From the IMG/VR virus record IMGVR_UViG_3300024243_000016, positions 1 through 64,000 of that record: a stretch of DNA of 64,000 nucleotides; one strand, written 5' to 3'. Below, piece after piece: positions 45,990-64,000 of this stretch (position 1 is the first letter of the stretch; the number at the start of each line of letters is the position of its first letter). Under the pieces are notes generated by a model. The model saw nothing but the letters and a program-made list of their open reading frames with translations. It was not told the origin of the DNA and ran no database searches. Both the position numbers and the translations under genes were made by a program. The DNA comes from a virus.

Positions 45990-46006
45990 TAAAAAAATTC
46001 CTTATT

Positions 46007-46456
46007 TTATTGAGCAACTCCCAACTCAAGACTAAAAATTTTATCATTAATGCTTGGCACATTATATGTAATCTTAACAATTGCATAACTAACTTCATTT
46101 ATATCATTGTTTGAAAATTGAACATCTAGCTCATCCAACTTAACAAACGGCATATACTTAGAAACAGCCTCATTAATATGAACAGCTATTCTCTCTTCCA
46201 ACTCATCACTTTCTTGTTCAAACAACAACTTCTTTAAATTAGCCCCAAAATCAAAAAGAACTAACCTTTCCCCATTATTAGTCAATATCAAATTTTTTAA
46301 ATTATCATTTATTTGATCTAACAATCTAGTGTGCATATCAATTGTGCCAAACCTAGCACTATTACGCAAAGGCGTAACAACACCTACAGCACCCTCATCA
46401 CGCTCAACAAGGCGCTCTGATTTTCGCTTACCAACACTATTAAATGATATAGCCAT
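46007..46456 (-). CDS. 25: Baseplate wedge protein, T4 gp25-like
   Basis: A 149-residue protein. The ATG at 46456 is the best start; the frame opens one codon earlier with TTG. The gp25 family pattern is clear: SFNSVGKRKSE at the N-terminus, a LRNSARFGTIDMHTR segment, DNLKNLILTNNGERLVLFDFGANLKKLLFE with the L-T-x-x-G-E/R-R-x-x-x-P/F-x-x-G-x-x-L core, and a final strand-rich part. In T4 and in contractile systems gp25 binds gp6 at the inner ring. It precedes the gp6-like gene by 17 bases, the standard order. Confidence 0.88.
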   Translation of the reverse strand: MAISFNSVGKRKSERLVERDEGAVGVVTPLRNSARFGTIDMHTRLLDQINDNLKNLILTNNGERLVLFDFGANLKKLLFEQESDELEERIAVHINEAVSKYMPFVKLDELDVQFSNNDINEVSYAIVKITYNVPSINDKIFSLELGVAQ

Positions 46457-46499
46457 CAAACTTAATTATCTAACAACAACAGAAAAACCATTAAAAAAA

Positions 46500-48858: not shown

Positions 48859-49554
48859 TCAACAATCTTTAAAATACTTCTTTCTTTTTTTATAAAACCC
48901 ATAAGATCTTCTAAACTTATTTAACTGTGCTACTATTTGTTTTGTTGACATCCCAGTTATTTCCCTTAAATATAAATATATTGATTTTTTATTTATTATA
49001 TCTATTTCATTAGAATGCTCTAACAAATATATAATACCATCTAAAACATTAACCTCACTATCTTTTTTATACCTTACCTTCCAATTCCTAATCTCTTCCA
49101 TTGTCTCATTTATCTCTTCTCTTTGTATTAATGTTTCCTCATAAGGACTTTCAACCCTCTGCAATAAGTTATATCTGTTGTCTGTTTCTGAGGAGCTATT
49201 TCTTTCGGAATAAGAAATTTCTCTTCTCCTTTTCTTACTTTCCTTATATTGTTTAGCCAACAAATAATTCTTAGCCACAACATTAAAATAGGAAAAAGCT
49301 TTGCTACCACGATCAGGATCAAATTTATACAACTTTTCATATAAATATGACACACAATCATCAACTAACGTATCATATGAAACTTCATTATTACAACTAA
49401 ACTTGTACACCATCAATAAATTTTTAACAAGATTTTCAAAACTCTCCCTTATACGCTCATCATAAATTTTATGCTTTTTAGCAAAATCACACTCATCATT
49501 AAAGTCTACTATAGCTTTATGAGTCTTGCCATCGAAATAATCATTCTTAGACAT
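48859..49554 (-). CDS. 55: Late-transcription sigma factor, T4 gp55-like
   Basis: A 231-residue protein, ATG start. Residues about 58-115 read as sigma region 2 of the gp55 type: DTLVDDCVSYLYEKLYKFDP, GSKAFSYFNVVAKNYLLAK and QYKESKKRRREISYSE, very similar in layout to the T4 gp55 core (an NFDE/KFDP segment, a helix with A-x-x-Y-F/I, then a basic K-x-R-K stretch). In T4 gp55 directs RNA polymerase to TATAAATA late promoters. Residues about 190-231 (ITGMSTKQIVAQLNKFRRSYG) look like a helix-turn-helix that T4 gp55 lacks. It heads the tail gene run and could switch it on. Confidence 0.72.
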   Translation of the reverse strand: MSKNDYFDGKTHKAIVDFNDECDFAKKHKIYDERIRESFENLVKNLLMVYKFSCNNEVSYDTLVDDCVSYLYEKLYKFDPDRGSKAFSYFNVVAKNYLLAKQYKESKKRRREISYSERNSSSETDNRYNLLQRVESPYEETLIQREEINETMEEIRNWKVRYKKDSEVNVLDGIIYLLEHSNEIDIINKKSIYLYLREITGMSTKQIVAQLNKFRRSYGFYKKRKKYFKDC

Positions 49555-49905: not shown

Positions 49906-51114
49906 TTATTTATACTTAGAGGTTAATATTTTCTCAAAATTATTAAATATATTATCAAGGGCATATCTTCCTCTAGCCTTCTTGGACAAAACTTTAGCCG
50001 ATTCCAAATAAGACTCATGGTTCTCAAAAAGCTCATATAAGCTAGACTTGAAAGAGTTTATATCAACCTCTGCCCACTTAGCCCCATTAACAAAAATATT
50101 GTTATCAATCCTCTCTTTAGGCACATTAACCAAACTATATGGCAATCTACTAGAGGACTTTTTATATAAATCAATTATATCTTTATGCCCAGACCAATCA
50201 GTAACCATAACTGGCAATCCAGAAACAGCCGCCTCTAAAACTGGTATACAAAAACCTTCTCCCCTAGTAGGCATAACAAAGGCTTTAATCTTCGGATGAT
50301 TATATAAAGCAGCCATCTCAACATCTGACATATAACCATGAACTAAATGAACTTTTGGAAACTTTCCCCAAGGTCGAACGCTGTTGATCATAGATTTAAC
50401 TGTGCTAGTAGTAACAACCTTATCAACAATAGAGTTGCCAGCAGAATTTGTTTTCAAAACTAAGCCAACATCTTTTCTACCTGAAAACGCTTCACAAAAA
50501 GTCTTAATTAATAAAAATATATTTTTTCTATCAATTCTAGGATCTCCAGTTAATTGACCAACAGATAAGAAATTAAAATCAGTTTCAAATTCTAAGTTGT
50601 TATAATTATATTCAAAATTCTCCTTAAAAACTAACTCATCATACGAGTGACCAATAGCATAAATTGGCACACCAACAGGGCCAGAATTCTTAAAGGTATT
50701 TTTGGTATGATTAGAAGGAACAAAAATAATATCCATATTGTTACATGCATTAACCCATTCAGGATTACAAATGTCTGTCTCGACACCAGCAGTAATGCCT
50801 ACATTATATTTAGCCAATTTTGGATCAAACTCATTTGGTAAAATATGCTGGAATGAGATATCAAACTGATTAATATTATGTGGTTTATTATGTTTCTCAA
50901 CAATACTCTTCTCTTTAAAGTCATTAATCAAAAATGGAGTTTTACCCCAAGGAGTTATCTCAAAATATAAATCCCAATTATACTTTTCGGATAACCTATG
51001 TAACATAACAGCAACCTGCCTAGATGCAACACCATAACCAGAAACACTTAAGACTGGTGCTCTAAAAACTACCGTCTTATTATTTAATTTATCATTTTTA
51101 TCGTTATTAGACAT
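49906..51114 (-). CDS. Glycosyltransferase, GT-B family 4-like
   Basis: The frame opens at 51141, but the ATG at 51114 has GGAGG ten bases upstream and is preferred (402 residues). The N-terminal domain contains VVFRAPVLSVSGYGVASRQV, a GT4-type loop with G-x-G/S. The C-terminal domain shows FNFLSVGQLTGDPRIDRKN, VHLVHGYMSDVEMAALYN, and TRGEGFCIPVLEAAVSG, the EX7E motif that binds the nucleotide sugar in retaining GT4 enzymes. It would transfer a sugar from a nucleotide donor; donor and acceptor are unknown. It is the last gene of the glycan cluster in the direction of transcription. Confidence 0.82.
   Translation of the reverse strand: MSNNDKNDKLNNKTVVFRAPVLSVSGYGVASRQVAVMLHRLSEKYNWDLYFEITPWGKTPFLINDFKEKSIVEKHNKPHNINQFDISFQHILPNEFDPKLAKYNVGITAGVETDICNPEWVNACNNMDIIFVPSNHTKNTFKNSGPVGVPIYAIGHSYDELVFKENFEYNYNNLEFETDFNFLSVGQLTGDPRIDRKNIFLLIKTFCEAFSGRKDVGLVLKTNSAGNSIVDKVVTTSTVKSMINSVRPWGKFPKVHLVHGYMSDVEMAALYNHPKIKAFVMPTRGEGFCIPVLEAAVSGLPVMVTDWSGHKDIIDLYKKSSSRLPYSLVNVPKERIDNNIFVNGAKWAEVDINSFKSSLYELFENHESYLESAKVLSKKARGRYALDNIFNNFEKILTSKYK
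49907..49914 (-). promoter_or_regulatory. Possible late promoter box (TATAAATA)
   Basis: The minus strand reads TATAAATA here, 33 bases before the ATG at 49873 and overlapping the last codons of the upstream glycosyltransferase gene. It is an exact match to the T4 late -10 box, and a gp55-like gene lies just downstream. In DNA this AT-rich the octamer also appears inside genes by chance (for example near 6666 and 61132), so support is weak. Confidence 0.25.
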
Positions 51115-51131
51115 AGTACACAAACCTCCAT

Positions 51132-52436
51132 TTAAATACATTCAATTGTATATTTTGGCGCACCCTTATTAAAAATAAACTTATCAATACAATCATTAAT
51201 AGACTTGTCCCAATCAGAAATCATACTATCAAAACCAAACCTATTTTTTGCATCTTCAAAACAAAGTTCACAAAGCTTATCATAATCTTCATCAGACATG
51301 CTGTGTGCTTCGAAAATCATATCAGAAATACTATCCCAACTCAAAAAATTATCCTCGATATATGGAACCTGATGTGTTCCCGTCAATGTTTTAACATCTG
51401 GCTCTCTAAAGATACCATAAGAATTACCATCATCATCAACAATTTGATCTGCCATACCACCAGTTTTTTGTATAATTGATGGCACACCACAAAGTTTTGA
51501 AACTAAGATATTTAAACCAAAACCCTCTGCACTAGATATACAAATGTTCCAATCAAAACAATTATACAAAACATTAATTTGTTCATGTGGTAACTTGTCC
51601 TTTGAAATATAAACATTATCCTTTACCCCTAACTTTTCTATAACTGAGAGAAGTAGTGGGCCTTCTGAATCAAAGGGATCACAATGCATAACCAACAATG
51701 CGTTTTTATGACCTTCCTTTTCATATAACTTATCCAAAAACATTTTCCAGCCCTTCAGTAGATCGCTAGGCTGTTTCCTCCTTGCATTTCTATTAACCCA
51801 GCCAACAATAAACCAATCTTTTTTATCACTACCAAAAATCTGTTCCTTATATTTAGCCACCTTATCCTTATCAATTCTTTTATACATATCATCAGGAAAT
51901 GCATGTGGAATATAGTTTGTTCTATCAGACAACCCCATGCTATTAATAGAGTTAAAAGAAACTTTATTAATACAATTCAACAAATCACAACTCATATATA
52001 ATGGCTTATTAAAATCTGGCTCTGGATAATTGTCCCAAATGTTCCAATAAGCAATAGGACAAACACTTCTTATTTCATCTTCCATTTCAAAAATATGAAT
52101 AAAAAATCTTGGATCAGTAAATAAAACTACCATATCAGGCTTTTCTGATGCTAATATCGATCTAATCTGCATTTTTGTGCCAAAATTATTTACAGGTAAA
52201 ATAATAAAATCATCATTATATGGTGGAACTTTAACGGGAGTATAATCAGCATGTTTAATTGCACCACCCAGACAAATAGCTTTATACCTCTTAGTATTAA
52301 GCAACCCCCTAATAAGCAAATTTGCTTGAATACCTACACCAGATAAGCCCCTTGGATCATCAGTAATAAATAACAACTTCTTTTTACCTACGCCATCATA
52401 AACATTGTTAAAATTAAATGCAGCATTACTATCCAT
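51132..52436 (-). CDS. Glycosyltransferase, GT-B family 4-like
   Basis: A 434-residue protein, ATG start with GGAGGG upstream. GT4 features: KKLLFITDDPRGLSGVGIQA at the N-terminus with the G-x-G loop, FIVGWVNRNARRKQPSDLL in the linker, KDNVYISKDKLPHEQINVLYN, and SSAEGFGLNILVSKLCGVPSI. In the last motif the second Glu of EX7E is replaced by Val (E-x7-V), so donor binding or activity may differ. It ends 17 bases before the next glycosyltransferase start. Probably cytoplasmic; substrate unknown. Confidence 0.8.
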   Translation of the reverse strand: MDSNAAFNFNNVYDGVGKKKLLFITDDPRGLSGVGIQANLLIRGLLNTKRYKAICLGGAIKHADYTPVKVPPYNDDFIILPVNNFGTKMQIRSILASEKPDMVVLFTDPRFFIHIFEMEDEIRSVCPIAYWNIWDNYPEPDFNKPLYMSCDLLNCINKVSFNSINSMGLSDRTNYIPHAFPDDMYKRIDKDKVAKYKEQIFGSDKKDWFIVGWVNRNARRKQPSDLLKGWKMFLDKLYEKEGHKNALLVMHCDPFDSEGPLLLSVIEKLGVKDNVYISKDKLPHEQINVLYNCFDWNICISSAEGFGLNILVSKLCGVPSIIQKTGGMADQIVDDDGNSYGIFREPDVKTLTGTHQVPYIEDNFLSWDSISDMIFEAHSMSDEDYDKLCELCFEDAKNRFGFDSMISDWDKSINDCIDKFIFNKGAPKYTIECI

Positions 52437-52471
52437 TTAAAAAACCCTCCAAAAAATTTAAAATAAATTAA

Positions 52472-53347
52472 TTAAACATTATTACCCTTTTCTCTCCTTA
52501 CCTTACCAATTCTCTCATTGGAGTTCCAGACTTCCATTAATAATTCTGGATTATACCCAACAGCCACAGCACTTTTTATAAATGCGCTCAAGTCCTTTGG
52601 TAAACATTTGCCATGCCAAGGTCTTTCATTACCTTTAAAGACAGCCGTATGCATTTTATTAATTCTTGGATCTAACAACCAAAGTTCCCTAGCCTCATTA
52701 TAATCCACATCAAAATGTTCACACATCTCATTTACTTCATAACAAAAAGCTATCTTAGTGGCATAAAAAGTGTTCTCCATATACTTAGCCACCTCAGCAG
52801 ATTTTGCATCTGTCTGTTTATAAATTTTAGTGGGGCCAGTTATGGGCAAAAAATAATCAACCATCTCACTAGTAGAATCACTATCTCCACCAAAAATAAA
52901 AAATGGTGTCTCTTTTATATCTGTATGAAACTTATATTCTGACCAATAAGAAGATTCCCCACAATATTCTGGAGAAAAAACAATATTTTTATTATATTTT
53001 TCAACCAAGTAATTAGTTGTACCAACAGAAACTGTACTTTTCAACAAAACCAATGGAGTATTAACCCAACTAACAACATCTTCGACAATAGAAATATCAC
53101 ATGTACCATCTTCATTCATAGGAGTAGGAACACAAATTACAGCCAAATCACACTCATTAATCTTATCTTTACTTGCTATAACATCAATAGTTAACCCATC
53201 AGATTTATTCTGTAAAAGATAATCATATCCCTTATCCTTCCTAGAAAATTCCACATCATAAACAAAAGTTTCATAATTATCTTTAAAAAAATTATACATC
53301 GCTTTACCAACATAACCATAGCCAACAATTCCAACTTTTTTAGACAT
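52472..53347 (-). CDS. Short UDP-glucose/GDP-mannose dehydrogenase-like protein
   Basis: A 291-residue NAD-dependent sugar dehydrogenase-like protein. Motifs: GYGYVGKAM (9-17) for NAD binding, VICVPTPMNEDG (70-81), the S-T-V-x-x-G-T segment (104-110), SPEY (125-128), KYMENTFYATKIAF with Lys188 and Asn192, and GKCLPKD (246-252) with the catalytic Cys248. These are the catalytic residues that oxidise the sugar C6 to an acid. Full-length family members are about 390-440 residues; the C-terminal UDP-binding domain is missing here. The short form may use another substrate or partner, or be a natural deletion. ATG start, in the glycan cluster. Confidence 0.78.
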   Translation of the reverse strand: MSKKVGIVGYGYVGKAMYNFFKDNYETFVYDVEFSRKDKGYDYLLQNKSDGLTIDVIASKDKINECDLAVICVPTPMNEDGTCDISIVEDVVSWVNTPLVLLKSTVSVGTTNYLVEKYNKNIVFSPEYCGESSYWSEYKFHTDIKETPFFIFGGDSDSTSEMVDYFLPITGPTKIYKQTDAKSAEVAKYMENTFYATKIAFCYEVNEMCEHFDVDYNEARELWLLDPRINKMHTAVFKGNERPWHGKCLPKDLSAFIKSAVAVGYNPELLMEVWNSNERIGKVRREKGNNV

Positions 53348-53356
53348 TATTTATTA

Positions 53357-54061
53357 TTACCCCCCAACTAAATCATTAATAAACACAAACTCAACATCAT
53401 CAGACTTATTAATGAAATTAATTAAATTATCAACAAAAACATCAGAAAAATAATTCTTATCCCACTCACAAGCATGATACATTATTTCAAGACTGTCCTT
53501 TTTAAACAAACCAACAAATGGTGGAAAACAATCAACATAATTAATCATGTGTTTATATTTATCCATCTCATCAAAACCACAATAAACTTTTTTATACATA
53601 TCTCCACTATTTAAAGAAACTAAATCAATACCAAAGTCATAACACGCTTTAAACGATTCTGGAGAGAGTCTAAATGCTGGTGGCCTAAATATGTTTCTTA
53701 CATCTATATTACACGACTTAAAATCTTTTTTACACATAGTTAATTTACTTAAAGCTTGTTCATAATTTAAACTTTCAAACTCATCATTATTACTTTCTCC
53801 AAAAATACCATGATTCAAACCATGATAACCTACTTCAAAATTATTCTTTGGCAAACTGTTAATTTTATCAATAAAATATTGATGATCAAATATATTATAT
53901 TCTTCATTATTATGATCCATACTTCTACAATACCTTGTAGGAATAAATAAAGTAAACTTAATATCTGGAAACGCCTCTATCAACTTAAAGCACTTATCTA
54001 AACACTTTATAGAGGAACTTGGGTGTGGGCTTATATCATCTATACTTACATTAATCTTCAT
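53357..54061 (-). CDS. NodB-type polysaccharide deacetylase
   Basis: A 234-residue protein, ATG start. It shows the carbohydrate esterase 4 set: VSIDD with Asp8 and Asp9 (N-terminal metal and base residues), VGYHGLNHG with His80 and His84 (the H-x3-H metal site), and FRPPAFRLSPESF near residue 125 (the R-P-P motif). A final HACEWDKN block may supply the last histidine. Such enzymes remove acetyl groups from sugars such as GlcNAc. No signal peptide is seen, so it probably acts in the cytoplasm on a sugar intermediate. Its start overlaps the previous gene's stop by 11 bases. Confidence 0.78.
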   Translation of the reverse strand: MKINVSIDDISPHPSSSIKCLDKCFKLIEAFPDIKFTLFIPTRYCRSMDHNNEEYNIFDHQYFIDKINSLPKNNFEVGYHGLNHGIFGESNNDEFESLNYEQALSKLTMCKKDFKSCNIDVRNIFRPPAFRLSPESFKACYDFGIDLVSLNSGDMYKKVYCGFDEMDKYKHMINYVDCFPPFVGLFKKDSLEIMYHACEWDKNYFSDVFVDNLINFINKSDDVEFVFINDLVGG

Positions 54062-55013
54062 TGAAACTAGAAATTACCTCTAAATAATTATCAACTACAT
54101 TATCAACATTATTATTATATAACAAAACTTTATTTTTATAAAACAAAAAATTATTAATAACATCTTTTAATTTATTTAAAAAATCATAAAAATTATCATA
54201 CTCTATTCCACCATAATTACTACAATAATCTTTTATACTTCCGCCGCCTGTCTTATACATAACTGGAAGTCCGCAAGCTTGCGCTTCTAAAACATGATTA
54301 GCCCCTGCTTCTTCTTCAGATGCCGTTACATACAAATCATATTTAGGTAAGCATATAGATAATTGACCACTATCTAATGGGCTAATATAATTATTAAAAA
54401 TAATATTTTCTGGCTTCCTGCCAATATATGTGAAGTCAACATTTATACCGAAAAAATCATGACACTCATTACTATTAAAGAAATTATTAATTTGCTTATA
54501 AAAAGAAAACCCCTTCCTAACATTATCAGACCAATGATGTGTAACCAATTTTATAATATCATCAGAGGCAAAACAATCCTTAACATTTCTATTATCAAAA
54601 TATAAATTATCAGCACCATTATCAATAACAATTGAATTTTTAGAATCAACGCTAAACACATTGTAATTAAAATAATTTTTTGCCCAATTGCTAGGAAAAA
54701 TAAAACAATCAGTGTCAACACACCCCTTCAACATATTAATAATCTCAGGCTTACCATGTGTACCAAGATCACCAACTCGTTGAAATATTTTTACACTTTT
54801 TTTTGTGCGCTTATAAGATGCTAAATGGCCATAGTGAATTCCAAATTCGCTCTGTCTAGGGTCCAAACAAAATATGGTAGTACATGTATCAGTCATACTA
54901 AAAATCGGTTGTAAGCCAAATTTATAGCATTTTTTTACAAATGCATTTAAAAATATATTACCACCACCCCATGGACCATTTTTTGGCACCCTATTGATGT
55001 AAATCTCTCTCAA
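54051..55013 (-). CDS. Glycosyltransferase, GT-B family 4-like
   Basis: A 320-residue frame that starts with TTG at 55013; no convincing ribosome site precedes it. A much better site serves an ATG at 55052 in the same frame, but a TAA at 55017-55019 lies between (see the separate entry). The GT4 C-terminal motif is clear: LYVTASEEEAGANHVLEAQACG, with EX7E, followed by the G-G-G-S loop. The N-terminal part has RVPKNGPWGGGNIF, a typical G-rich loop, and a hallmark RVGDLGTHGKPEI segment. The 3' end overlaps the deacetylase start by 11 bases. Confidence 0.75.
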   Translation of the reverse strand: MREIYINRVPKNGPWGGGNIFLNAFVKKCYKFGLQPIFSMTDTCTTIFCLDPRQSEFGIHYGHLASYKRTKKSVKIFQRVGDLGTHGKPEIINMLKGCVDTDCFIFPSNWAKNYFNYNVFSVDSKNSIVIDNGADNLYFDNRNVKDCFASDDIIKLVTHHWSDNVRKGFSFYKQINNFFNSNECHDFFGINVDFTYIGRKPENIIFNNYISPLDSGQLSICLPKYDLYVTASEEEAGANHVLEAQACGLPVMYKTGGGSIKDYCSNYGGIEYDNFYDFLNKLKDVINNFLFYKNKVLLYNNNVDNVVDNYLEVISSFNED

Positions 55014-55016
55014 AAC

Positions 55017-55052
55017 TTAAAAACCATTTTCAACAAAATTAAAATTAGACAT
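55017..55052 (-). other. Eleven-codon upstream frame with a good ribosome site
   Basis: ATG at 55052 with GGGAG seven bases upstream reads MSNFNFVENGF and stops at TAA (55017-55019). One codon later, in the same frame, comes the TTG (55011-55013) of the glycosyltransferase. This may be a leader peptide that feeds ribosomes to the TTG, or the original start now split off by a nonsense mutation. Confidence 0.45.
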
Positions 55053-55070
55053 TAACCCACTCCCTATAAC

Positions 55071-55778
55071 TTAAGGCTTATTATGAACAAGAACTTGCCC
55101 ATAATTTATTTCATCATCAGATAATTTTCTATCATCAATAAAAATTCTTCTATCACCTATAATATAATCCATTTTATATTCATCACAATTATCAATATTG
55201 TCTACGACATCCCTAACACCAAAGCCATCTTTATGCCCTTCAATATAGTCATCAAACAAAACAAATTTATTAAAATGACTTTTAGACCACTCCCAATCCT
55301 TATTTACAGATAAATAATCATGTGCTGCATCTATATAAACCAAATCAAAACTTTCCTCTATGTTACTTAAAACATTGTTAGTCAACCCCCTAATAAACTC
55401 AGTATTCTTATACCATTCAGCCGAAAAATTCTTAAGCAATGCATTTAAATAATCTTCTGAAATATCTGCATCAATAGTTACAATCTTGCCATCGATACCT
55501 TCATCACAAAAAGCCTTCCCAGCACATAAAGTAGTATATCCTCTACCTGTACCTAACTCTATAAAACTCTTTAACTTAAACTTTCTTATTAAATAATAAA
55601 CTAAAATACCTCTTTCATAATTTGGCCTAAAAAACTTTCCAAGTTTATAATGCTCTGAGTTTGGCCCCCTTGGTTTTCTAGCAGCTAGCTCACCAATTGC
55701 ATCGAAGTCACCCAAAACAATACTATCTACACTTACCCCAAGCTCACCTAACAACTCTCTTATATTAATCTTTCTCAT
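55071..55778 (-). CDS. Class I SAM-dependent methyltransferase
   Basis: A 235-residue protein, ATG behind GGAGTAG. Motif I FIELGTGRGYTTL (72-84) binds S-adenosylmethionine; VTIDAD (100-105) holds the acidic residue after strand 2; DLVYIDAAHDY (about 146-156) is the post-strand 4 motif used by catechol- and sugar-O-methyltransferase-like enzymes of the Methyltransf_24 type; and KFVLFDDYIEGHKDGFG follows. It probably methylates a hydroxyl group on a sugar or small acceptor made by the cluster. No DNA- or protein-methyltransferase motif such as DPPY is seen. Confidence 0.75.
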   Translation of the reverse strand: MRKINIRELLGELGVSVDSIVLGDFDAIGELAARKPRGPNSEHYKLGKFFRPNYERGILVYYLIRKFKLKSFIELGTGRGYTTLCAGKAFCDEGIDGKIVTIDADISEDYLNALLKNFSAEWYKNTEFIRGLTNNVLSNIEESFDLVYIDAAHDYLSVNKDWEWSKSHFNKFVLFDDYIEGHKDGFGVRDVVDNIDNCDEYKMDYIIGDRRIFIDDRKLSDDEINYGQVLVHNKP

Positions 55779-55795
55779 ATCTACTCCTTAATACA

Positions 55796-56764
55796 TTAAA
55801 AGTTAAACAAAAAATCAAACTTACTCAAATATTTTCCAACAAAATACTCTTTTGATTTAAAAAAATTATCAACTTTATCATAAGAGTTGATATTATTTAA
55901 AAACATATTACAAAAACTATCAACAACATTATTGTCAATACTACATATATACTTTTTAGGTAAAAAACTGTTCGTAACACCAACATCTGTTGATAACACA
56001 TTAGTCTTTGTAGCCACACATTCTGGAATAGCTTGTGGGCCACCTTCATACCTGCTAGTAACAAAGTACCAATCTAAACAATTATAAAGCTCATTAATAA
56101 CATTAATGCTAGGTCTTTCTATATATGTATAATTAATATTATATAGCTTTAGCTTATCAATAACATAATTCCTTCTCCAGCCAGATAACAACACATGTAT
56201 ATTGCTAATCTCATATTCATACTTAATTTTATTCAACACGTCAACAAAAATATCTGGCCCTTTCTCCATTTTAGGGCTTCTTAAATCAATACCCTCAGTG
56301 TCTCTCTGGAAACTACCTATAACAATATCACCACCATTAACATCAATACCATGCTTGTTTAATAAACTATTTTTACATTTCATTGGGAAGAATATATTGT
56401 TATTTATCCACCATGGTAAGCTTATTACTTTTTTATTTGTTAGCCCCTGTATTTGTTGGGCAGTTCTATCTGATGGAACATGATATACATCTGTAATAAA
56501 ATCCCTAGACACAAAATCACTTTTTTTACTATAACCAAACTTTTCTGGAACAATATGATGCACCGTTGTAATTACTTTCTTACCTTTCAATATATTAAAT
56601 GGTATTTGATTCCAACACCAGCTAGCTAATAACCAAATAACGTCTGCTTCTACAGGATTGCTAACAATATTATAAACACCTTTGTCACAAAACCTTTTAA
56701 ATTCATCACAAAGCCGATCACAAACCCAATCTTCTCTAGCTGGCAATATAAAGACTTTAATCAT
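55796..56764 (-). CDS. Glycosyltransferase, GT-B family 4-like
   Basis: A 322-residue protein, ATG start, six bases before a TAA-separated neighbour. GT4 features: KKVITTVHHIVPEKFG with the early His-rich strand, YHVPSDRTAQQI, VISLPWWINNNIF, IVIGSFQRDTEG, and WYFVTSRYEGGPQAIPECVATKT with the EX7E motif. It has no membrane segments and should be soluble. The acceptor is unknown. It and 56771-57736 are similar in size and layout and may add successive sugars. Confidence 0.8.
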   Translation of the reverse strand: MIKVFILPAREDWVCDRLCDEFKRFCDKGVYNIVSNPVEADVIWLLASWCWNQIPFNILKGKKVITTVHHIVPEKFGYSKKSDFVSRDFITDVYHVPSDRTAQQIQGLTNKKVISLPWWINNNIFFPMKCKNSLLNKHGIDVNGGDIVIGSFQRDTEGIDLRSPKMEKGPDIFVDVLNKIKYEYEISNIHVLLSGWRRNYVIDKLKLYNINYTYIERPSINVINELYNCLDWYFVTSRYEGGPQAIPECVATKTNVLSTDVGVTNSFLPKKYICSIDNNVVDSFCNMFLNNINSYDKVDNFFKSKEYFVGKYLSKFDFLFNF

Positions 56765-56770
56765 TGTTCA

Positions 56771-57736
56771 CTATTCTCCATCATCAATTGTTTTTTTAAA
56801 AAAATTAACATACTTGTTTGCAACACTACTTATATTAAGCTTATTGTAAGCCATATTATTATCAAACCTACTCTTACAATCAACATTCAAAAATTTTTCA
56901 ACCATACTATCAATATTTAAAGTTGGTGGATTATACAAATTATGTGGTTTAAAGTCCCAAACAAAATCATTATAAACAACACCAAAATCATTAACTAATT
57001 CTTTTGTGCCGCCAGAATTCGTACAAATAACTGGGCAACAATTTGCTATGGCCTCGACAACAACATTTGGACAATGATCTAACCACGCTAAGTGAACCAT
57101 AAAATCAGAACCTCTATAGACATTAGTAATAAAGTCTTTATTTTGCTTGCCACACATTACAATGTCATCACGACCACTATATTGATTAATATCAAAACCA
57201 CAGTTGCTAACATCACCAATAACAATTAATTTTGAGCAACCATCTGAAGCTTTTATGTAAAACTCAATAATATCACCCAACCTCTTATGAGGCCTCCAAT
57301 CTGAACAACAACAAAATGTTTTACCACTACTCCTTATGTTCTTCTCACCAACAACATCAAAAACATCACCGTTATTAATAACACAACAATTGTTTTTTAC
57401 ACCAAAATATTCAAATGTTAATTTTTTATTAAACTCAGATTGAAAAATAACCCCATCAGACCTGCCATATGTATCAACGATTGGCTTGTTCATATTTTTC
57501 CAATCTTGAATAGAGTTAAACCAAATGCCATCAAGCCTCAATACTAATTTAGCTTCACTACAAATATTATTTTTAGCATACCCATAATCACTTATAAAAG
57601 ACAATAAAATATCATACTTATCTCTAACACCAACAACTTTAACACCTAATTTATTAAATTCGCTTGCCAACTTATTAGCAAATGAATTAGGGCCAGAACT
57701 ACTATTAAAATCTACATTAAAAAAACAAACTTTCAA
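56771..57736 (-). CDS. Glycosyltransferase, GT-B family 4-like
   Basis: A 321-residue protein. It starts with TTG at 57736, six bases after a GAGG site; no ATG lies before the fold. The N-terminus VCFFNVDFNSSSGPNSFANKLA is a GT4 opening with the S-G-P-N-S-F loop. The C-terminal half has FCCCSDWRPHKRLGDIIEFY, KLIVIGDVSNCGFD and AWLDHCPNVVVEAIANCCPVI, where the first Glu of EX7E is replaced by Asp (D-x7-E), followed by the TNSGGTKELV loop. Retaining transfer from a nucleotide sugar is expected from the family. Confidence 0.8.
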   Translation of the reverse strand: MKVCFFNVDFNSSSGPNSFANKLASEFNKLGVKVVGVRDKYDILLSFISDYGYAKNNICSEAKLVLRLDGIWFNSIQDWKNMNKPIVDTYGRSDGVIFQSEFNKKLTFEYFGVKNNCCVINNGDVFDVVGEKNIRSSGKTFCCCSDWRPHKRLGDIIEFYIKASDGCSKLIVIGDVSNCGFDINQYSGRDDIVMCGKQNKDFITNVYRGSDFMVHLAWLDHCPNVVVEAIANCCPVICTNSGGTKELVNDFGVVYNDFVWDFKPHNLYNPPTLNIDSMVEKFLNVDCKSRFDNNMAYNKLNISSVANKYVNFFKKTIDDGE

Positions 57737-57745
57737 TTTAGGCCT

Positions 57746-58465
57746 CTACTTTACCAAAAATAAAAATATATACAATTGTGGGCTTTCTGGCCAAAGCATT
57801 AAAAAATCCAAAAAACAAAAAGCAAACTTATTTTTTATATAACTATAATCTAAACAATTTGTCTCATTTAAGACAACATCATTAATACTCTTGTTAAAAT
57901 AATAATCATTTACATCTTTAACACATTCAAAAAAATCATTAACAACTCTATTTTCACAAAAATGATTATTCCAAACAACTGACCACAAATGTTGTTTTTT
58001 ATTATTATAAACAGAGTGTTCATGAGCGTGTGTATATAAATCACGATCCCTGTTTAAAAACCAACCAACCTTATAATTATCAAATCTCCAATGATCGCCA
58101 AGCCCAAAATCAACAATAAAAACACCACCATTATTTAGCCTATCATAACAGGAATCAACAAAGTATTTTAAATCATTACTAAAGTATGCCACCCTAGAGC
58201 AAACAATTAAATCATATTTTTTTTCACCAAAATAAAATAAATTTTTACTAGACTTATCATTTATATCAAAATTATATAACTGTATATCAAAATAGTCAAA
58301 CTTACAATTACTATTACATATTTTTTTTATAACATTAAATAAATAATTGTTGTCATTAACAAAACCAACAAAAGCAACATTTTTAAAATCTTTTATATTT
58401 TTTATGCCTAACTCAAAAATTTTACTTTCATAATATTTTCTTAAAACAGTATCACTTTTTCCCAT
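57746..58465 (-). CDS. Methyltransferase-like protein (class I fold, degenerate motif I)
   Basis: I choose the ATG at 58465 (239 residues); the frame opens at a GTG at 58477. NVAFVGFVNDNNYLFNVIKK replaces the usual G-x-G-x-G loop, FDYFDIQLYNFD supplies the strand 2 acidic residue, and KYDLIVCSRVAYFSNDLKYF, DRLNNGGVFIVDFGLGDHW match the post-motif region of small-molecule methyltransferases. Because motif I is poor, cofactor binding is uncertain. A role in modifying a cluster product is inferred. It is not similar to 55071-55778 at the motif level. Confidence 0.55.
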   Translation of the reverse strand: MGKSDTVLRKYYESKIFELGIKNIKDFKNVAFVGFVNDNNYLFNVIKKICNSNCKFDYFDIQLYNFDINDKSSKNLFYFGEKKYDLIVCSRVAYFSNDLKYFVDSCYDRLNNGGVFIVDFGLGDHWRFDNYKVGWFLNRDRDLYTHAHEHSVYNNKKQHLWSVVWNNHFCENRVVNDFFECVKDVNDYYFNKSINDVVLNETNCLDYSYIKNKFAFCFLDFLMLWPESPQLYIFLFLVK

Positions 58466-58482
58466 ATTAAACACCAAAAAAA

Positions 58483-59295
58483 TTAATTATAGTCTTTTAA
58501 ATCAGCACCATTAAAACCACTTTGCGCCCTGATATCATCATAACAAAAATGATTGCTTAAAGGCAATATCCAACTAGAGTCACAATTAAAAACAATTTCA
58601 TTGCCATCGTTATAAAATAAAGTAAATACATCTAACTTTTTATAATCAGAACATTGACAAACTAAATCTTCAATCATATTCTTTTTAATATTTTTTGAAA
58701 CATAATCATAAATTAAAGCCGCCTGATTTTTTAAAAAAAACGTTCCAGGCAACGTATAAAAATTTCTTTTATTTTTAAAAGCAATAACATTGTTAGTCTT
58801 ATAAAAAATGTCATTTAATAAAAATGGATTCTCATAACTAAACTCCTCCTTCTTTTCTTTTTTTGCACAAGCTAAATGTAATACTGACATATCATTATAT
58901 AAATGATAAAAATCATTAAAAACAATTTTATTTATTATCCTATGATCATCATCAAAAAATACACAATATTTTGACTTACTATTTAAAAACCTTTTAAGCA
59001 ATAACAAACAAGATTTATTAACACCCAGCCTTTCATTACAACAAAACATATCAACATTAGAGTTTTCTGAGCTTAGCTCCTTCTTATAAATATTGACAAT
59101 ATCAAAAACATTGCCAGTCCCATTACTTCTTTTATAATTATCTACATTAATAAACACATCAAAAATAAAATCTTTATTACAATTAATAATATTTTTAAAA
59201 ATTGTTTTTGCTGTTATTGAAATTAAATCTGCATCAATTATAGCTGGTATGCACAGACAAACCCTCTTGCTATTTTTATCACCAACACTGATCAC
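58483..59295 (-). CDS. Glycosyltransferase, GT-A family 2-like
   Basis: A 270-residue protein starting with GTG at 59295, six bases after GGAGG. The N-terminal part has RVCLCIPAIIDADLI and FIFDVFINVDNYKRSNGTG, a GT-A nucleotide-binding region. CNERLGVNKSCLLLLKRF matches the N-x-G-x-x-x-A segment of family 2, and KYCVFFDDDHRI (Asp115-Asp117) is the D-x-D metal site. The second half has the FYTLPGTFFLKNQAALIY segment of the acceptor side. It is the only GT-A-like enzyme in the cluster; the others are GT-B. Confidence 0.68.
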   Translation of the reverse strand: MISVGDKNSKRVCLCIPAIIDADLISITAKTIFKNIINCNKDFIFDVFINVDNYKRSNGTGNVFDIVNIYKKELSSENSNVDMFCCNERLGVNKSCLLLLKRFLNSKSKYCVFFDDDHRIINKIVFNDFYHLYNDMSVLHLACAKKEKKEEFSYENPFLLNDIFYKTNNVIAFKNKRNFYTLPGTFFLKNQAALIYDYVSKNIKKNMIEDLVCQCSDYKKLDVFTLFYNDGNEIVFNCDSSWILPLSNHFCYDDIRAQSGFNGADLKDYN

Positions 59296-59398
59296 TTAAC
59301 ACCTCCATGTTAATATTAGAACAATTTGTTTTTTCATATAAAAATCGCATTATCACTTTTTATTTCTAAAACTAAACAACAATAACAATTAAACTTTA

Positions 59399-60532
59399 TT
59401 AGTTTAAAAGCTTCTTTATTATATCACAAAGTAAATCAACTGACTTTAACTTAGGATCATATAAAAACTTAGATTTATGTTCCATATATTCCATATCCTT
59501 ACCATAATCAAAAGATATATTATTAATAAAATCTTCTAATTCAGATAATTTACAACTATCACCAACCCAAGAAAAATTATTACCCCAAAAACTATTTCCA
59601 AGCCCACCAAACAACAAATTATTTTCTAAGTCATCAACATCTATATATATAAATGGCTTATTAAATAAACCAAACTCAATGCCAGAACTAGTTTGATACC
59701 CAATACCACTTGAACAATACTTATAACACCAGTATGTATCAAAAGGCTCTAACACTGCCACATCATCTCTATCACAAAAAACCTCATAAGACCATTTACC
59801 ACCAAGGCGATCTGCCTTATGCCGTTTATATTCCATAGGATGTAATTTAACAATAATATTATCTAAATTACAAACTTTATTATAAGCTTCTTGAGCCTTA
59901 CTATGTTGACACTGTACTCCATCAGGCATCCATATAAAAAAAGGCTTGTTTTTATTTAAATTATATTTACAACAAAATTCGTCATAACTTAAATTATATG
60001 GTAAACAATCTGACACATGATCCCATACTAAACAATTAGAATGTATAACATTTTTAACATTAATGTCCTTATCTTTAAACACTTCATTTTGTAACTCACA
60101 TATTAACAAACATATGTCAGCCCCATGATAATAAAAATCAACAAATTGTTCACTTATTTGTATGGTTTTTGCCCCCTTAGCTTTAGCAATTTTAAGATCA
60201 ACATTACCCTGAGACTTATCGGAACCAAATATACAAACTTTATAATCAATATATTTAAAAACATTTAAAGTTAAATTATAATCGCTAAAAATAACATTAC
60301 ATAAATCACAACTGTCAAACTCTTTAAGTAGAGATGAGTTAATACCAAAATTAGTAGAAGTATTTAAAATCAACAATGAATTACAAAATTTATTAAACAT
60401 TTTATTTAAATTTAAATATTTATTAACATGATAAACATTTGGATTATAAATATGAATTAAAACATCAAAATTAACATTATTATCTTTAAGGTACTGCAAA
60501 TTATCATAATCCATAACAATGCCATTTAACAT
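59399..60532 (-). CDS. CDP-glycerol glycerophosphotransferase-like protein (GT-B fold)
   Basis: A 377-residue protein, ATG at 60532 behind GGAG. Key segments: KPFFIWMPDGVQCQHS, VKLHPMEYKRHK (the K-x-H-P strand), and a SSGIGYQTSSGIEFGLFNKPFIYID block, the usual phosphate and nucleotide site of CDP-glycerol transferases and related capsule enzymes. Such enzymes add glycerol-phosphate or sugars to teichoic-acid or capsule chains. No membrane segment is visible. It may add a phospho-polyol or a sugar to the cluster product. About 100 bases of AT-rich, non-coding DNA follow (59296-59398). Confidence 0.65.
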   Translation of the reverse strand: MLNGIVMDYDNLQYLKDNNVNFDVLIHIYNPNVYHVNKYLNLNKMFNKFCNSLLILNTSTNFGINSSLLKEFDSCDLCNVIFSDYNLTLNVFKYIDYKVCIFGSDKSQGNVDLKIAKAKGAKTIQISEQFVDFYYHGADICLLICELQNEVFKDKDINVKNVIHSNCLVWDHVSDCLPYNLSYDEFCCKYNLNKNKPFFIWMPDGVQCQHSKAQEAYNKVCNLDNIIVKLHPMEYKRHKADRLGGKWSYEVFCDRDDVAVLEPFDTYWCYKYCSSGIGYQTSSGIEFGLFNKPFIYIDVDDLENNLLFGGLGNSFWGNNFSWVGDSCKLSELEDFINNISFDYGKDMEYMEHKSKFLYDPKLKSVDLLCDIIKKLLN

Positions 60533-60552
60533 AATTAAAAACTCCTTAACTA

Positions 60553-60918
60553 TTAATTAATTGGAACTCCACACACAGTTGCTCCATCGGGAACATTTTT
60601 ATTTACAAAAGAATGAGCACCAATAATACAATTTTCACCAATTTTTATTCCTGGCATAATTGTTGAATGTGCCCCTATTTTACTATTTTTTCCAATAAAA
60701 ACCAGACCAACCTTGTTATCAATAGTTGAAATACTATATATAGAACAATGAGAACCAATCTTAACATTATCACATATTTTGACACCATTTTTACAATTAA
60801 TATATGTAAATGCACCTATATCTACATTGTTGCCTAAAATAAAACTTTCTGGATATTGAACCACCCAGTTCCATTCAGTTAACTTATTATGTTCAATCTT
60901 TGGTTTTTCCCAATCCAT
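60553..60918 (-). CDS. Left-handed beta-helix acyltransferase (hexapeptide repeat)
   Basis: A 121-residue protein, ATG with AGGG upstream. Hexapeptide repeats of the [LIV]-G-x4 type run through it: NNVDIGAFTYI, NVKIGSHCSIY, KNSKIGAHSTIMPGIKIGENCIIGAHSFV, closing PDGATVCGVP, a common end in sugar O- and N-acetyltransferases. His in IGAHST or IGAHSF is the likely catalytic base. It would acetylate a sugar in the product, and the SGNH and NodB enzymes nearby could remove acyl groups. Its first codons overlap the 3' end of the SGNH gene remnant. Confidence 0.8.
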   Translation of the reverse strand: MDWEKPKIEHNKLTEWNWVVQYPESFILGNNVDIGAFTYINCKNGVKICDNVKIGSHCSIYSISTIDNKVGLVFIGKNSKIGAHSTIMPGIKIGENCIIGAHSFVNKNVPDGATVCGVPIN

Positions 60919-61264
60919 TTTTCCCTATAAAACAATCAAAAACTTTTGCAAACTGTTCAAACATTTCAAATTTAACATGATAACCATCATCACTTTTATC
61001 ATCACACATAAAATCATTGTAACACATAATATCATGATTAATAAAATTATAATTTATTAATTCCTTTTCAAAGTCAAAAAAATAAATATTACTATTATCA
61101 TTACAAAAGATCTCCAAAGCATCATTATATTTATTTATACAATCACTAGCTAAAAAATGCCTATTTTGTTCATGCCAACTATGAGGTTTTAATATTGACA
61201 TAATAATAAAATTATTAACAAAACAATTGTTGTTAGATATGAAATTTTTCAAATTATTAATATA
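60893..61264 (-). pseudogene. Truncated duplicate of the SGNH hydrolase gene (C-terminal part)
   Basis: This open stretch encodes about 120 residues that line up with the last half of the protein at 61326-62075. It keeps SILKPHSWHEQNRHFLASD and the DDGYHVKFEMFEQFAKVFD block, but the N-terminal half with the catalytic Ser is absent. Homology reaches back to the in-frame TAA at 61265-61267. There is no ATG before residue 18 of the homologous part; a TTG at 61252 is possible but has no ribosome site. I read it as the remnant of a tandem duplication, not a working hydrolase. Its 3' end overlaps the acyltransferase start. Confidence 0.65.
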
Positions 61265-61616
61265 TTATTACATAAAATAAAACCCCAATAGTAAATAGTT
61301 TAAAAAACACCTTTATCATACTTTATCATATAACATTATTTTTTACAAAAAAATCAAAAATTCTAGCAAACGTTTCAAACATTTCATACTTAATGTGATA
61401 CCCATCATCATCTATATCATCACACATAAAATCATCACAAGAAAAATTAACACCATATTCAAGATTATACTTCCCTAGTTGCTCTTCAAAGTTAAAAAAA
61501 TAAACATTTTTATTATTATCACAAAAACTTTCTAAAGTATCATTATACTTGTTTATACAATCACTAGCTAAAAAATGCCTATTTTGTTCATGCCAACTAT
61601 GAGGTTTTAATATTGA
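61134..61616 (-). repeat. 65-bp perfect direct repeat pair (61134-61198 and 61552-61616)
   Basis: The two 65-base blocks are identical and lie 418 bases apart, one in the SGNH gene and one in its truncated copy. They encode the KPHSWHEQNRHFLASDCINKY region. Perfect DNA identity over 65 bases, with the flanks already diverged, points to recent conversion or strong constraint. Confidence 0.9.
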
Positions 61617-62075
61617 TATAAATACAAACTTATTAACAAAACATTTGTTATTATCAACAAAAGAACTAATATTTTTAATATAATCATAAACAGTAACATA
61701 ACAATTATGAGAACCACCGTTTTTATTATAAATGTAATATAACAAATCATATCTATTGTCTCTCAAAAACTTCCTTATGTCATTACCGACAATATCAATA
61801 GAACAACTATAATTAATTAAATCATCATATGAAACATTCTTATCATAAATTCTTGGCGCAGCGTCAACAATACCAAGGTTAGACACACATAATTCAATTT
61901 TATCATATATAGACAAATCAACATCTAATAAATATTTTGATGTCCTAGCGTCATTAGCATCAACAATTAAATCACAGTCGCCGCCCCAAAAATCACAAAA
62001 AGAAATCCAAGGAACTTCAACACCACGCTTCAACAAAGAGTCCGAAATTATGGCTACATTACCACTTTCAATCAT
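61326..62075 (-). CDS. SGNH/GDSL-like hydrolase, probable carbohydrate acyl esterase
   Basis: A 249-residue protein, ATG with GGAGG eleven bases upstream. SGNH blocks are visible: NVAIISDSLLKRG with Ser13 near the N-terminus (block I, Asp-Ser rather than Gly-Asp-Ser), CVSNLGIVD with the Asn-type third block (about 63-71), FVFISILKPHSWHEQNRH, and DDDGYHIKYE with Asp224 and His227 (block V, D-x-x-H). These residues fit ester hydrolysis of acetyl groups on sugars, the counter-activity to the acyltransferase nearby. Block I is unusual, so substrate and activity are not certain. A truncated copy lies 60 bases downstream. Confidence 0.62.
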   Translation of the reverse strand: MIESGNVAIISDSLLKRGVEVPWISFCDFWGGDCDLIVDANDARTSKYLLDVDLSIYDKIELCVSNLGIVDAAPRIYDKNVSYDDLINYSCSIDIVGNDIRKFLRDNRYDLLYYIYNKNGGSHNCYVTVYDYIKNISSFVDNNKCFVNKFVFISILKPHSWHEQNRHFLASDCINKYNDTLESFCDNNKNVYFFNFEEQLGKYNLEYGVNFSCDDFMCDDIDDDGYHIKYEMFETFARIFDFFVKNNVI

Positions 62076-62092
62076 AAATCACAAAGCCTCCA

Positions 62093-63454
62093 TTAAATTA
62101 AATAATCTGAAATACTAACTGAGTTATTTCTATTGCCAATATAATAATTCATATTTTCAACAAATTTATTTCTTTTATGTACAGCCACACCTAACTCACT
62201 ATCACTCCATTCTGTAAGATTAACCCGTAGCTTATTAAATCCACCTTGAAGTGAAATTAAATATTTTTCTATATCATCAATATTATTATTTATTATACCA
62301 TTGTTAACACAATAATCAAACAACCACGATCCAGGAAGAGGTGTTATGTTTGCAAATCCCATAGAAACACCATGCCTCCTAAAAATATCCTTCAAATCAA
62401 ATAAAAAACTCAAAGTATCATTAAAAGATTTATTATTCTCACCCAAAAAACCAAATATCAATTGTATGTTAGGTCTTATTCCAAATTTATCACACTTAAC
62501 AATTGCATTATATATATTTTCTACATTAGCCCCTTTATTCATCTTTATTAAAATATCATCACTACAGCTTTCAACACCAAAAGTTATAGTAAAACAATTG
62601 TTACTTGAAGCAACAGCTAATATATCATCATTAACTAAATTGACCCTACCATTAGCATACCATTTACCATATTTGCCAACAGTCTCAGAAATATTAGTAG
62701 CACGATCAACACTAGACAATGCCAACTCATCACAAATAGCCACATAATCAAAACCAAAAGAAGCATTTTTATTATAAAAATCTAATTCATCTTTAATAGA
62801 ATCAATACTCCTCATTGTATACTTGTCAAACATTCTAGAACAAAAATGACAATTATATGGACATCCACGACTAGTCATAATTGTATATATTCTATTTGAT
62901 CTCATAATATTATTAATAAAAAAACCTTCATAATCTGGAACCACATCGCAACTCTCTGGTTCCCAACAAGTAAGATCATTAACAACAATATTATCATCAT
63001 CATCCAAATAAGCAACCCCATTTATATATTTTAAATCAAAAGAATCAACAAAATCAATTAAAAACCTTTCAGCATCTCTTAAAAAACAAATATCAATATT
63101 TGTCTTTAATAAAACAATATCATAATTAAACCTAGCTAAACATCCACCCAGAACTATTGAAACATTATCCAAACTTTCCTTTATTATAGACGACAACCAC
63201 TTAACATATGCATATTGTGTTGACATAGCAGTGATACCAACAAAGTCGATACTTTTACCCTTAAAAAACTTAAGTCTATTAACAACATCATTATTACTCA
63301 AATTCTCTGAGTTTATATCTAAAACATAAACACTATGACCATCATTCCTTAAAATTCTTTTCACAATAGCTAGCCCAACTGGAAATTGCGTAGAATGCCG
63401 ATAATCAGCCGAATCAGATAAACATGTTTTAGGGTTAATTAATAAAATGTTCAT
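62093..63454 (-). CDS. Radical SAM enzyme with an N-terminal B12-binding-type domain
   Basis: A 453-residue protein, ATG start; it overlaps the next upstream gene by 20 bases. Residues 1-140 look like the cobalamin-binding fold of class B radical SAM enzymes: NILLINPK, FPVGLAIVKRILRNDGHSVYVLDIN, FVGITAMSTQYAYVKWLSSII and VLGGCLAR. The D-x-H-x-x-G histidine motif is not visible, so base-off His ligation may be absent. The iron-sulphur site is RGCPYNCHFC (196-205) with Cys198, Cys202 and Cys205 (C-x3-C-x2-C). FGVESCSDDILIKMNKG is the usual radical SAM strand. It may methylate or rearrange a sugar or carbon centre. Unusual in a phage. Confidence 0.78.
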   Translation of the reverse strand: MNILLINPKTCLSDSADYRHSTQFPVGLAIVKRILRNDGHSVYVLDINSENLSNNDVVNRLKFFKGKSIDFVGITAMSTQYAYVKWLSSIIKESLDNVSIVLGGCLARFNYDIVLLKTNIDICFLRDAERFLIDFVDSFDLKYINGVAYLDDDDNIVVNDLTCWEPESCDVVPDYEGFFINNIMRSNRIYTIMTSRGCPYNCHFCSRMFDKYTMRSIDSIKDELDFYNKNASFGFDYVAICDELALSSVDRATNISETVGKYGKWYANGRVNLVNDDILAVASSNNCFTITFGVESCSDDILIKMNKGANVENIYNAIVKCDKFGIRPNIQLIFGFLGENNKSFNDTLSFLFDLKDIFRRHGVSMGFANITPLPGSWLFDYCVNNGIINNNIDDIEKYLISLQGGFNKLRVNLTEWSDSELGVAVHKRNKFVENMNYYIGNRNNSVSISDYLI

Positions 63455-64000
63455 ATATTACACCAAAAATCCTTTGTGGGCAGTCGCCACACATTAAATC
63501 AAAATTAAGAAAATTATCTTTACAAAAGCTCACAATATCGCTATTGTTATTTTTATAATGTTCTAAAAAGCTACAAATCTTTTTACCAAAACCAACACAG
63601 TCAATATTATCAGAAAAATTTATACACATATCATCATTAATATAATTAGCCATATTACTACTATCATCAAAAAAAGGTAAAACAACATTGCCCATAAAAA
63701 ATGACTCAAAAAAAGATGCTGACCTTGAATTACACACAATACAATCAAACTTGTTAAAAACATCATATATATTATCAAAAACAACATGTGATTTAACAAA
63801 AAGAGACTTGCTACTAAAAATAGCACCAGAATGATCATAAGGGTGAAAATTTAAAAATAAATTATATTTACTAGTAAAACTATCATCTTTAACAAAGCTA
63901 TCAAACAAGTCAATAATATAATTATTCCAACTTAAAATACTATCAAATAAAATACAAATATTAATTTTTTTATTACTATCAATCTTCTCACTTAATAAGC
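63435..64000 (-). CDS. Glycosyltransferase-like protein, C-terminal part (cut by right edge)
   Basis: The frame is open from the right edge to the stop at 63435, about 188 codons, so the N-terminal part is outside the window. Visible segments: KINICILFDSILSWNNY near the edge, NLFLNFHPYDHSG with the H-P strand, and FDCIVCNSRSASFFESFFMGNVVLPFF, the loop common to CDP-glycerol or capsule-type GT-B enzymes such as the 59399-60532 protein. Its 3' end overlaps the radical SAM start by 20 bases. A TTG at 63908 is too far inside to be the start. Confidence 0.5.
   Translation of the reverse strand, partial: LLSEKIDSNKKINICILFDSILSWNNYIIDLFDSFVKDDSFTSKYNLFLNFHPYDHSGAIFSSKSLFVKSHVVFDNIYDVFNKFDCIVCNSRSASFFESFFMGNVVLPFFDDSSNMANYINDDMCINFSDNIDCVGFGKKICSFLEHYKNNNSDIVSFCKDNFLNFDLMCGDCPQRIFGVIYEHFIN

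Follow-up and report, generated by a model that had tools for sequence, protein, structure and literature searches.

A conserved tandem glycosyltransferase pair beside a variable sugar-gene cluster in T4-like phages, and its possible role in virion glycosylation

Described glycan loci of phages and viruses

Large glycan clusters are already known in T4-like phages, namely those of the P-SSM2 type (PMC7824862), of the pelagimyophages (PMC7029224) and of the moraphages (PMC12619734). Here we compare with them a locus at positions 49,906–64,000 of a 64,000-bp stretch of viral DNA (the window), which forms the first part of the 64,692-bp IMG/VR record IMGVR_UViG_3300024243_000016. The locus comprises 16 consecutive genes, all on the minus strand, and has at its left end a tandem pair of GT4-type glycosyltransferases, GT-A and GT-B. 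The cluster is real and phage-borne, with its phage context given by terminase, baseplate wedge and late-sigma matches. Because the window carries elsewhere a T4-like terminase, an SbcC-like protein, baseplate wedge proteins, LamG-domain proteins and a late-sigma-like gene, its source is, by gene content, a contractile-tailed phage. The last gene of the locus runs on to position 64,571, and since the record stops shortly afterwards the cluster is truncated at its right end.

The host recognition cluster of pelagimyophages and cyanomyophages (PMC7029224) resembles the present locus in being a hypervariable region with glycosyltransferases, sugar enzymes and radical SAM genes in the structural part of a T4-like genome, and its hypervariable content lies between conserved modules, as is also found here from the open reading frames (ORFs) that related loci have in common on the two sides of the pair (17% versus 75%, see below). 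The pelagimyophage region has its radical SAM genes in cassettes, includes tail fibres and is flanked by VrlC and gp14, whereas the flanks here are PhoH (in relatives) and the pair with sigma factor, gp25 and gp6; the leading glycosyltransferase family is GT8 in that cluster and GT4 and GT2 in ours. The P-SSM2-type lipopolysaccharide/capsule clusters of jumbo cyanophages (PMC7824862) hold about 15 glycosyltransferase and nucleotide-sugar genes with no demonstrated export system, as here; in its accessible portion that report describes no conserved tandem pair and reads the clusters as host-surface modification. The moraphages (PMC12619734) are large aquatic T4-like phages with a core that includes sigma factor, gp6, gp25, PhoH and four glycosyltransferase orthogroups. 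The available text gives neither the gene order around these core transferases nor a mechanism and mentions no swappable cassette, and they can be likened to GT-A and GT-B by description only.

The nearest relative of the pair with a solved structure is the chlorovirus protein B736L (PDB 3OY2/3OY7; PMC9614988, PMC7826918), for GT-A by sequence and for GT-B by sequence and fold. Chloroviruses, the group to which the virus encoding B736L belongs, glycosylate their own virions (PMC9614988), and their virus-encoded virion glycans have a conserved core and variable decoration (PMC9614988, PMC7826918), whereas the glycan considered here is predicted from genes. B736L and the pair share only about 15% identity, and the chlorovirus is a eukaryotic virus.

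GT4-type O-glycosyltransferases that act on proteins in the cytoplasm are found in Gram-positive bacteria, examples being GtfA/GtfB (a pair) and SdgB. GtfA/GtfB is a tandem GT4-type pair like GT-A/GT-B, and the likeness is one of arrangement only. In the fold search 5E9T ranked 31 and SdgB ranked 42, the GtfA/GtfB entry reached a TM of 0.51, under many other GT4 enzymes, and the serine-rich repeat acceptor of that system has no identified counterpart here. The Wzx/Wzy system for exported polysaccharide differs in its initiating membrane transferase, flippase and polymerase, which were not found in 54 related records (the window record being truncated).

The GT-A/GT-B pair: relatives, synteny and inheritance

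From a profile scan of viral contigs, which returned at least 593 GT-A relatives, 80 loci were retained, and about 85 related loci were compared in all; the viral contigs are mostly fragments, and the upstream comparison was confined to 10 kb for most loci. The terminase and the glycosyltransferase pair both point to Flavobacterium phage immuto, Microcystis phage Mel-JY01 and the uncultured phage LR756508, and the pair also matches Rhodothermus phage RM378. GT-A of Mel-JY01 is split over two adjacent ORFs (L007:18019-19510). One relative from another IMG data set (IMGVR_UViG_3300024258_000307) is 100% identical to the window in the GT-B stretch and apparently represents the same phage population, as judged from this stretch. 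At the DNA level the cluster as a whole matched none of 50,697 phage genomes.

In 74 of the 75 loci in which this could be tested, GT-A is followed immediately by GT-B on its downstream side. A PD-(D/E)XK nuclease gene is found at most 1.5 kb upstream of the pair in 68 of 77 loci (for example L004:7910-8761) and is missing from the window's own cluster, and a sigma factor accompanies the pair in 39 loci including the window, in most cases together with gp25 and gp6. Pairwise identity between phages in GT-A and in GT-B follows that in the baseplate wedge protein gp6 (rho 0.67 and 0.70, respectively; permutation p 0.001), at least as well as that of the sigma factor does (0.57), and mean identity between phages is higher for GT-A (55%) than for gp6 (43%). 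Within the group of loci with the sigma factor, on the other hand, a mean of only 17% of ORFs upstream of the pair are common to both loci compared, against 75% downstream. One pair of relatives with gp6 87% identical has all downstream ORFs (100%) and 25% of upstream ORFs in common (L016 and L019). The GC content falls from 32% in the pair and the virion genes to about 25–27% at the far end of the window cluster. Since identity in the pair tracks gp6, upstream ORFs differ and GC content drops, we infer that the pair passes down together with the core genes of the phage, the neighbouring sugar genes being exchanged between relatives.

The pair looks phage-specific on present sequence evidence. 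Among phage records the GT-A family was found in only eight, which included no pelagiphage, and a bacterial set of 84,980 genomes gave only 18 matches to the pair, all in metagenome bins. Seventeen of these have the phage GT-A/GT-B arrangement, some of them with sigma factor, gp25 and gp6 as well. The contig JADZBO010000263 from a Burkholderiaceae bin has a phage GT-A at its start followed by unrelated bacterial sequence without GT-B, and is probably a chimeric assembly, judging by this composition. We reject a recent acquisition of the pair from bacteria in view of these matches, all of which are in bins, 17 arranged as in phages and one seemingly chimeric.

The AlphaFold2 model of GT-B (predicted local distance difference test, pLDDT, 93) has a GT-B fold. 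Its best PDB match is B736L of chlorovirus NY2A (3OY2; Z 31.6, root mean square deviation 2.9 over 348 residues; next Z 29.8), and among predicted viral structures its top matches are giant-virus transferases. B736L is likewise the best PDB sequence match of both the GT-A and the GT-B profile (E 3e-16 for GT-A). The EX7E motif is intact in GT-B of the window. In GT-A of the window the second Glu of this motif is replaced by Val, and because 75 of 86 relatives keep the Glu at this position, the window copy may be altered in activity.

These comparisons add to what is known a phage-specific tandem pair that is syntenic with nuclease, sigma and baseplate genes and apparently inherited vertically, in contrast to a quickly exchanged cassette. 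No description of these features was found in the literature searched, which left out most subscription papers.

Genes of the cluster and the full interval in relatives

A phage glycan locus is present where the original prediction had placed a 14-kb cluster, but the parts list given there, of eight glycosyltransferases and a full set of decorating enzymes, is only partly supported. The genes of the locus and its conserved neighbours are as follows, all on the minus strand.

44193..46459, minus, baseplate wedge genes gp6-like and gp25-like (phrog_6, phrog_261; synteny), conserved neighbours
48859..49554, minus, late sigma-factor-like gene (phrog_234; synteny), conserved neighbour adjoining the pair
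49906..51141, minus, GT-B, second gene of the tandem GT4 pair (Glycos_transf_1 38 bits, Pfam, above cut-off; phrog_2170 E 4e-37)
51132..52436, minus, GT-A, first gene of the tandem GT4 pair (Pfam 32.4 bits, above cut-off)
52472..53347, minus, UDP-glucose/GDP-mannose dehydrogenase-like (PF00984 and PF03721; TIGR03026 partial)
53357..54061, minus, DUF2334 protein (PF10096 E 1e-12)
54051..55013, minus, GT4-like transferase, below Pfam cut-off (PF00534 23.3 bits; phrog_2170 E 8e-10)
55071..55778, minus, O-methyltransferase-like, Methyltransf_24 (PF13578 E 2e-12)
55796..56764, minus, GT4-like transferase, just under Pfam cut-off (PF00534 25.2 bits)
56771..57736, minus, GT4 transferase (PF00534 45.1 bits, above cut-off)
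57746..58477, minus, possible methyltransferase, weak (PF08242 E 9e-4, below cut-off)
58483..59295, minus, no assigned family (no relevant match; earlier label GT2-type)
59399..60532, minus, no assigned family (no match; earlier label CDP-glycerol-type)
60553..60918, minus, hexapeptide-repeat acyltransferase (PF00132 61.9 bits; partial NeuD-family match)
60893..61252, minus, truncated tandem duplicate (81% DNA identity over 319 bp with the 3' part of 61326..62075)
61326..62075, minus, no assigned family (no profile, phage or PDB match; SDS/DGYH-like motifs by eye only)
62093..63454, minus, B12-binding radical SAM protein (PF04055 and PF02310; several B12-binding radical SAM models below cut-off)
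63435..64000 in the window and to 64,571 outside it, minus, 378-aa gene of no assigned family (earlier label CDP-glycerol-type)

The five GT4-type genes of the original prediction are backed by profiles, three above the Pfam cut-off (those starting at 49906, 51132 and 56771) and two below it (54051 and 55796), and these five are the only glycosyltransferases for which this is the case. The gene labelled GT2-type (58483-59295), the two labelled CDP-glycerol-type (59399-60532 and 63435-64571) and the supposed SGNH esterase (61326-62075) had no pertinent match in Pfam at a threshold as loose as E 10, and neither had the ORF at 60893-61252; for the four genes PDB sequence searches returned nothing relevant and the searches made found no phage or viral-contig homologue, viral contigs having been searched with 59399-60532 and the right-end gene, and NCBIfam searches, where made, lent no support to the GT2-type, CDP-glycerol-type or SGNH labels. 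A single-sequence structure model of 59399-60532 (pLDDT 35) was unusable and was discarded. The 119-aa ORF at 60893-61252 repeats the 3' part of the adjoining 249-aa gene. As several labels are thus unsupported and the contig end cuts the cluster, neither the count of eight transferases nor a full decorating set can be claimed. Inspection of the DNA to the right of the window covers the 692 bp up to the record end, which hold the rest of the 378-aa gene.

Among the decorating enzymes, the acyltransferase and the radical SAM enzyme were correctly recognised, the latter with a distant relative as its sole match in the phage collection. One of the two proposed methyltransferases is clear (55071-55778) and the other weak (57746-58477). 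The deacetylase corresponds to the DUF2334 match, a family of deacetylase-like proteins. The sugar dehydrogenase is present with its N-terminal and central domains only; since the C-terminal UDP-binding domain is absent, the acidic sugar that had been predicted is possible and not demonstrated. The T4-type late promoter TATAAATA occurs 11 times in sense and 9 times in antisense orientation without enrichment at gene starts, so that late expression of the cluster gains no support.

In the eight records that are long enough, the interval from PhoH to GT-A spans 12–29 kb and is nearly all on one strand, with large tail-fibre-like ORFs by PhoH in most of them, then a double transferase of about 640 aa, the sugar genes and usually the nuclease; in compact relatives PhoH is merely about 1–5 kb from GT-A. 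The large ORFs that adjoin PhoH in relatives are repeat-rich, and the window ends before that part of the region. Near its left end the window has a 307-aa gene (1157-2080) whose product is similar to a fibre-like protein that flanks the sugar interval in one relative (L094:4190-7927). The double transferase is 48–63% identical in seven records, with more members by profile. It combines a GT2 domain with an N-terminal half that resembles a transferase (L010:6737-8665, L094:8151-10073, L098:12068-14017). Lying at the opposite end of the variable interval, it is possibly a third core transferase. Among 138 ORFs of the eight intervals, pooled as a list for the family scan and not as a homology alignment, the leading Pfam matches were to GT2 (26), epimerase (21) and GDP-mannose-dehydratase-type (20) families.

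Possible acceptors of the predicted glycan

Profiles for a flippase (PF01943), an initiating transferase (PF02397), Wzy (PF04932) and a WecA-type enzyme (PF00953) matched nothing in the 54 related records, although the positive controls were recognised. Neither the window cluster nor the 170 interval ORFs of eight complete relatives held a convincing polytopic membrane protein, the nearest to one being an aminotransferase with two weak membrane segments. The original prediction, which had noted no flippase, polymerase or initiating transferase and favoured a cytoplasmic acceptor, is supported by this absence, although a host-surface acceptor might be reached without a phage flippase because phage transferases can use the export route of the host.

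Because export machinery is absent, a DNA hydroxymethylase is mostly lacking (see below) and B736L is the best relative, we favour, tentatively and a little short of an even balance of belief, the glycosylation of a virion protein by soluble phage enzymes, with a conserved inner and a variable outer part of the glycan. The cluster would be the glycan-biosynthesis part of a hypervariable region in a T4-like phage, and its enzymes, working in the cytoplasm of the host, would assemble a short glycan on a virion protein of the phage, with a tail fibre or another surface protein as the likeliest candidate. A conserved inner stretch of this glycan would be the work of GT-A and GT-B, which are inherited along with virion and transcription genes and would act on a phage acceptor that is likewise conserved; the other transferases and sugar-modifying enzymes would add a strain-specific outer part, so that replacement of the outer genes would change the surface chemistry of the particle. 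The analysis demonstrates the gene content, the conserved pair and its co-divergence with gp6, the turnover of the neighbouring genes and the absence of export machinery; which molecule accepts the glycan, in what sequence its parts are added and what this does for the phage are inferences. Large tail-fibre-like ORFs border the same interval in most complete relatives, which supports a virion acceptor. Several observations weigh against it. The analysis turned up no acceptor protein, and S/T-rich acceptor regions sought in the virion proteins of the window showed nothing distinctive; the fibre-like ORFs are weakly backed by PHROG, having been called from length, repeats and mutual similarity; the frequent PD-(D/E)XK neighbour has no explanation in a virion model; and in immuto, Mel-JY01 and RM378 the pair lies near replication genes and not near virion genes. 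GT4 enzymes as a class act on many acceptors. The acceptor of B736L is itself uncertain, and the NY-2A capsid glycan is without mannose (PMC9614988).

The main rival to a virion acceptor, which we regard as possible though rather doubtful, is remodelling of the host surface polysaccharide, in which the enzymes would act in the cytoplasm on lipid-linked or nucleotide-sugar intermediates of the host and the host would export the product, so that rival phages could not adsorb, or the progeny could not do so again. Like clusters in jumbo cyanophages and pelagimyophages have been interpreted in this way (PMC7824862, PMC7029224); the epimerases, GDP-mannose dehydratases, GT2 enzymes and aminotransferases in the intervals of relatives resemble O-antigen sets, and export machinery of the phage's own is unneeded if the host provides it. 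The pair, however, is found in phages of Flavobacterium, Microcystis and Rhodothermus, for which a shared surface acceptor is not expected, it diverges like a virion gene, and no membrane-bound or initiating transferase is encoded.

A glycan on phage DNA, as a hypermodified nuclease-resistant base, would fit the nuclease gene that precedes the pair in 68 of 77 loci and the proximity of the pair to replication genes in immuto, Mel-JY01 and RM378. For T4-type DNA glycosylation a dCMP or dUMP hydroxymethylase is needed to supply the acceptor base. Of 20 larger relatives that carry the pair, 17, among them RM378 and Mel-JY01 with complete genomes, have no thymidylate-synthase-type hydroxymethylase, which makes DNA, one of the targets proposed in the original prediction, a less likely acceptor. 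TET/JBP oxygenases gave no match either, but neither did they in the control genomes. A thymidine modification of roughly 1 kDa that is oligosaccharide-like is known from phage YerA41 (PMC9023294); YerA41 DNA, though, is not copyable by ordinary polymerases, whereas the present phages were assembled from ordinary metagenome data, and we consider a DNA glycan improbable. We give similarly little credence to a gathering of independent transferases in a tolerant site, some producing a small glycoside or acting on a host protein. The fast turnover of neighbouring genes, the several genes without any relatives, the truncated duplicate and the B12 radical SAM enzyme with only a distant match in the phage collection would agree with such a mixture; against it, glycan genes lead the eight complete intervals, nearly all on one strand and adjoining the pair.

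Glycosyltransferase clusters of large marine phages are usually classed as host-surface modification or auxiliary metabolism. A pair that phages of very different hosts have retained, that has diverged in the manner of a baseplate gene and whose neighbours are exchanged between close relatives points instead to a phage-encoded acceptor, and the question of the acceptor is testable in isolates already at hand. More broadly, and as a conjecture that we think less probable than otherwise, widespread T4-like phages might possess an inherited phage-specific two-enzyme system that starts a virion protein glycan, together with an exchangeable outer-glycan cassette. Such a system would be the prokaryotic equivalent of the way in which chloroviruses glycosylate their virions, and would allow the phages to vary their surface type while their structural proteins stay the same. 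Should a virion protein prove to be the acceptor, the exchange of glycans would be a means of altering phage surface properties that has so far had little recognition.

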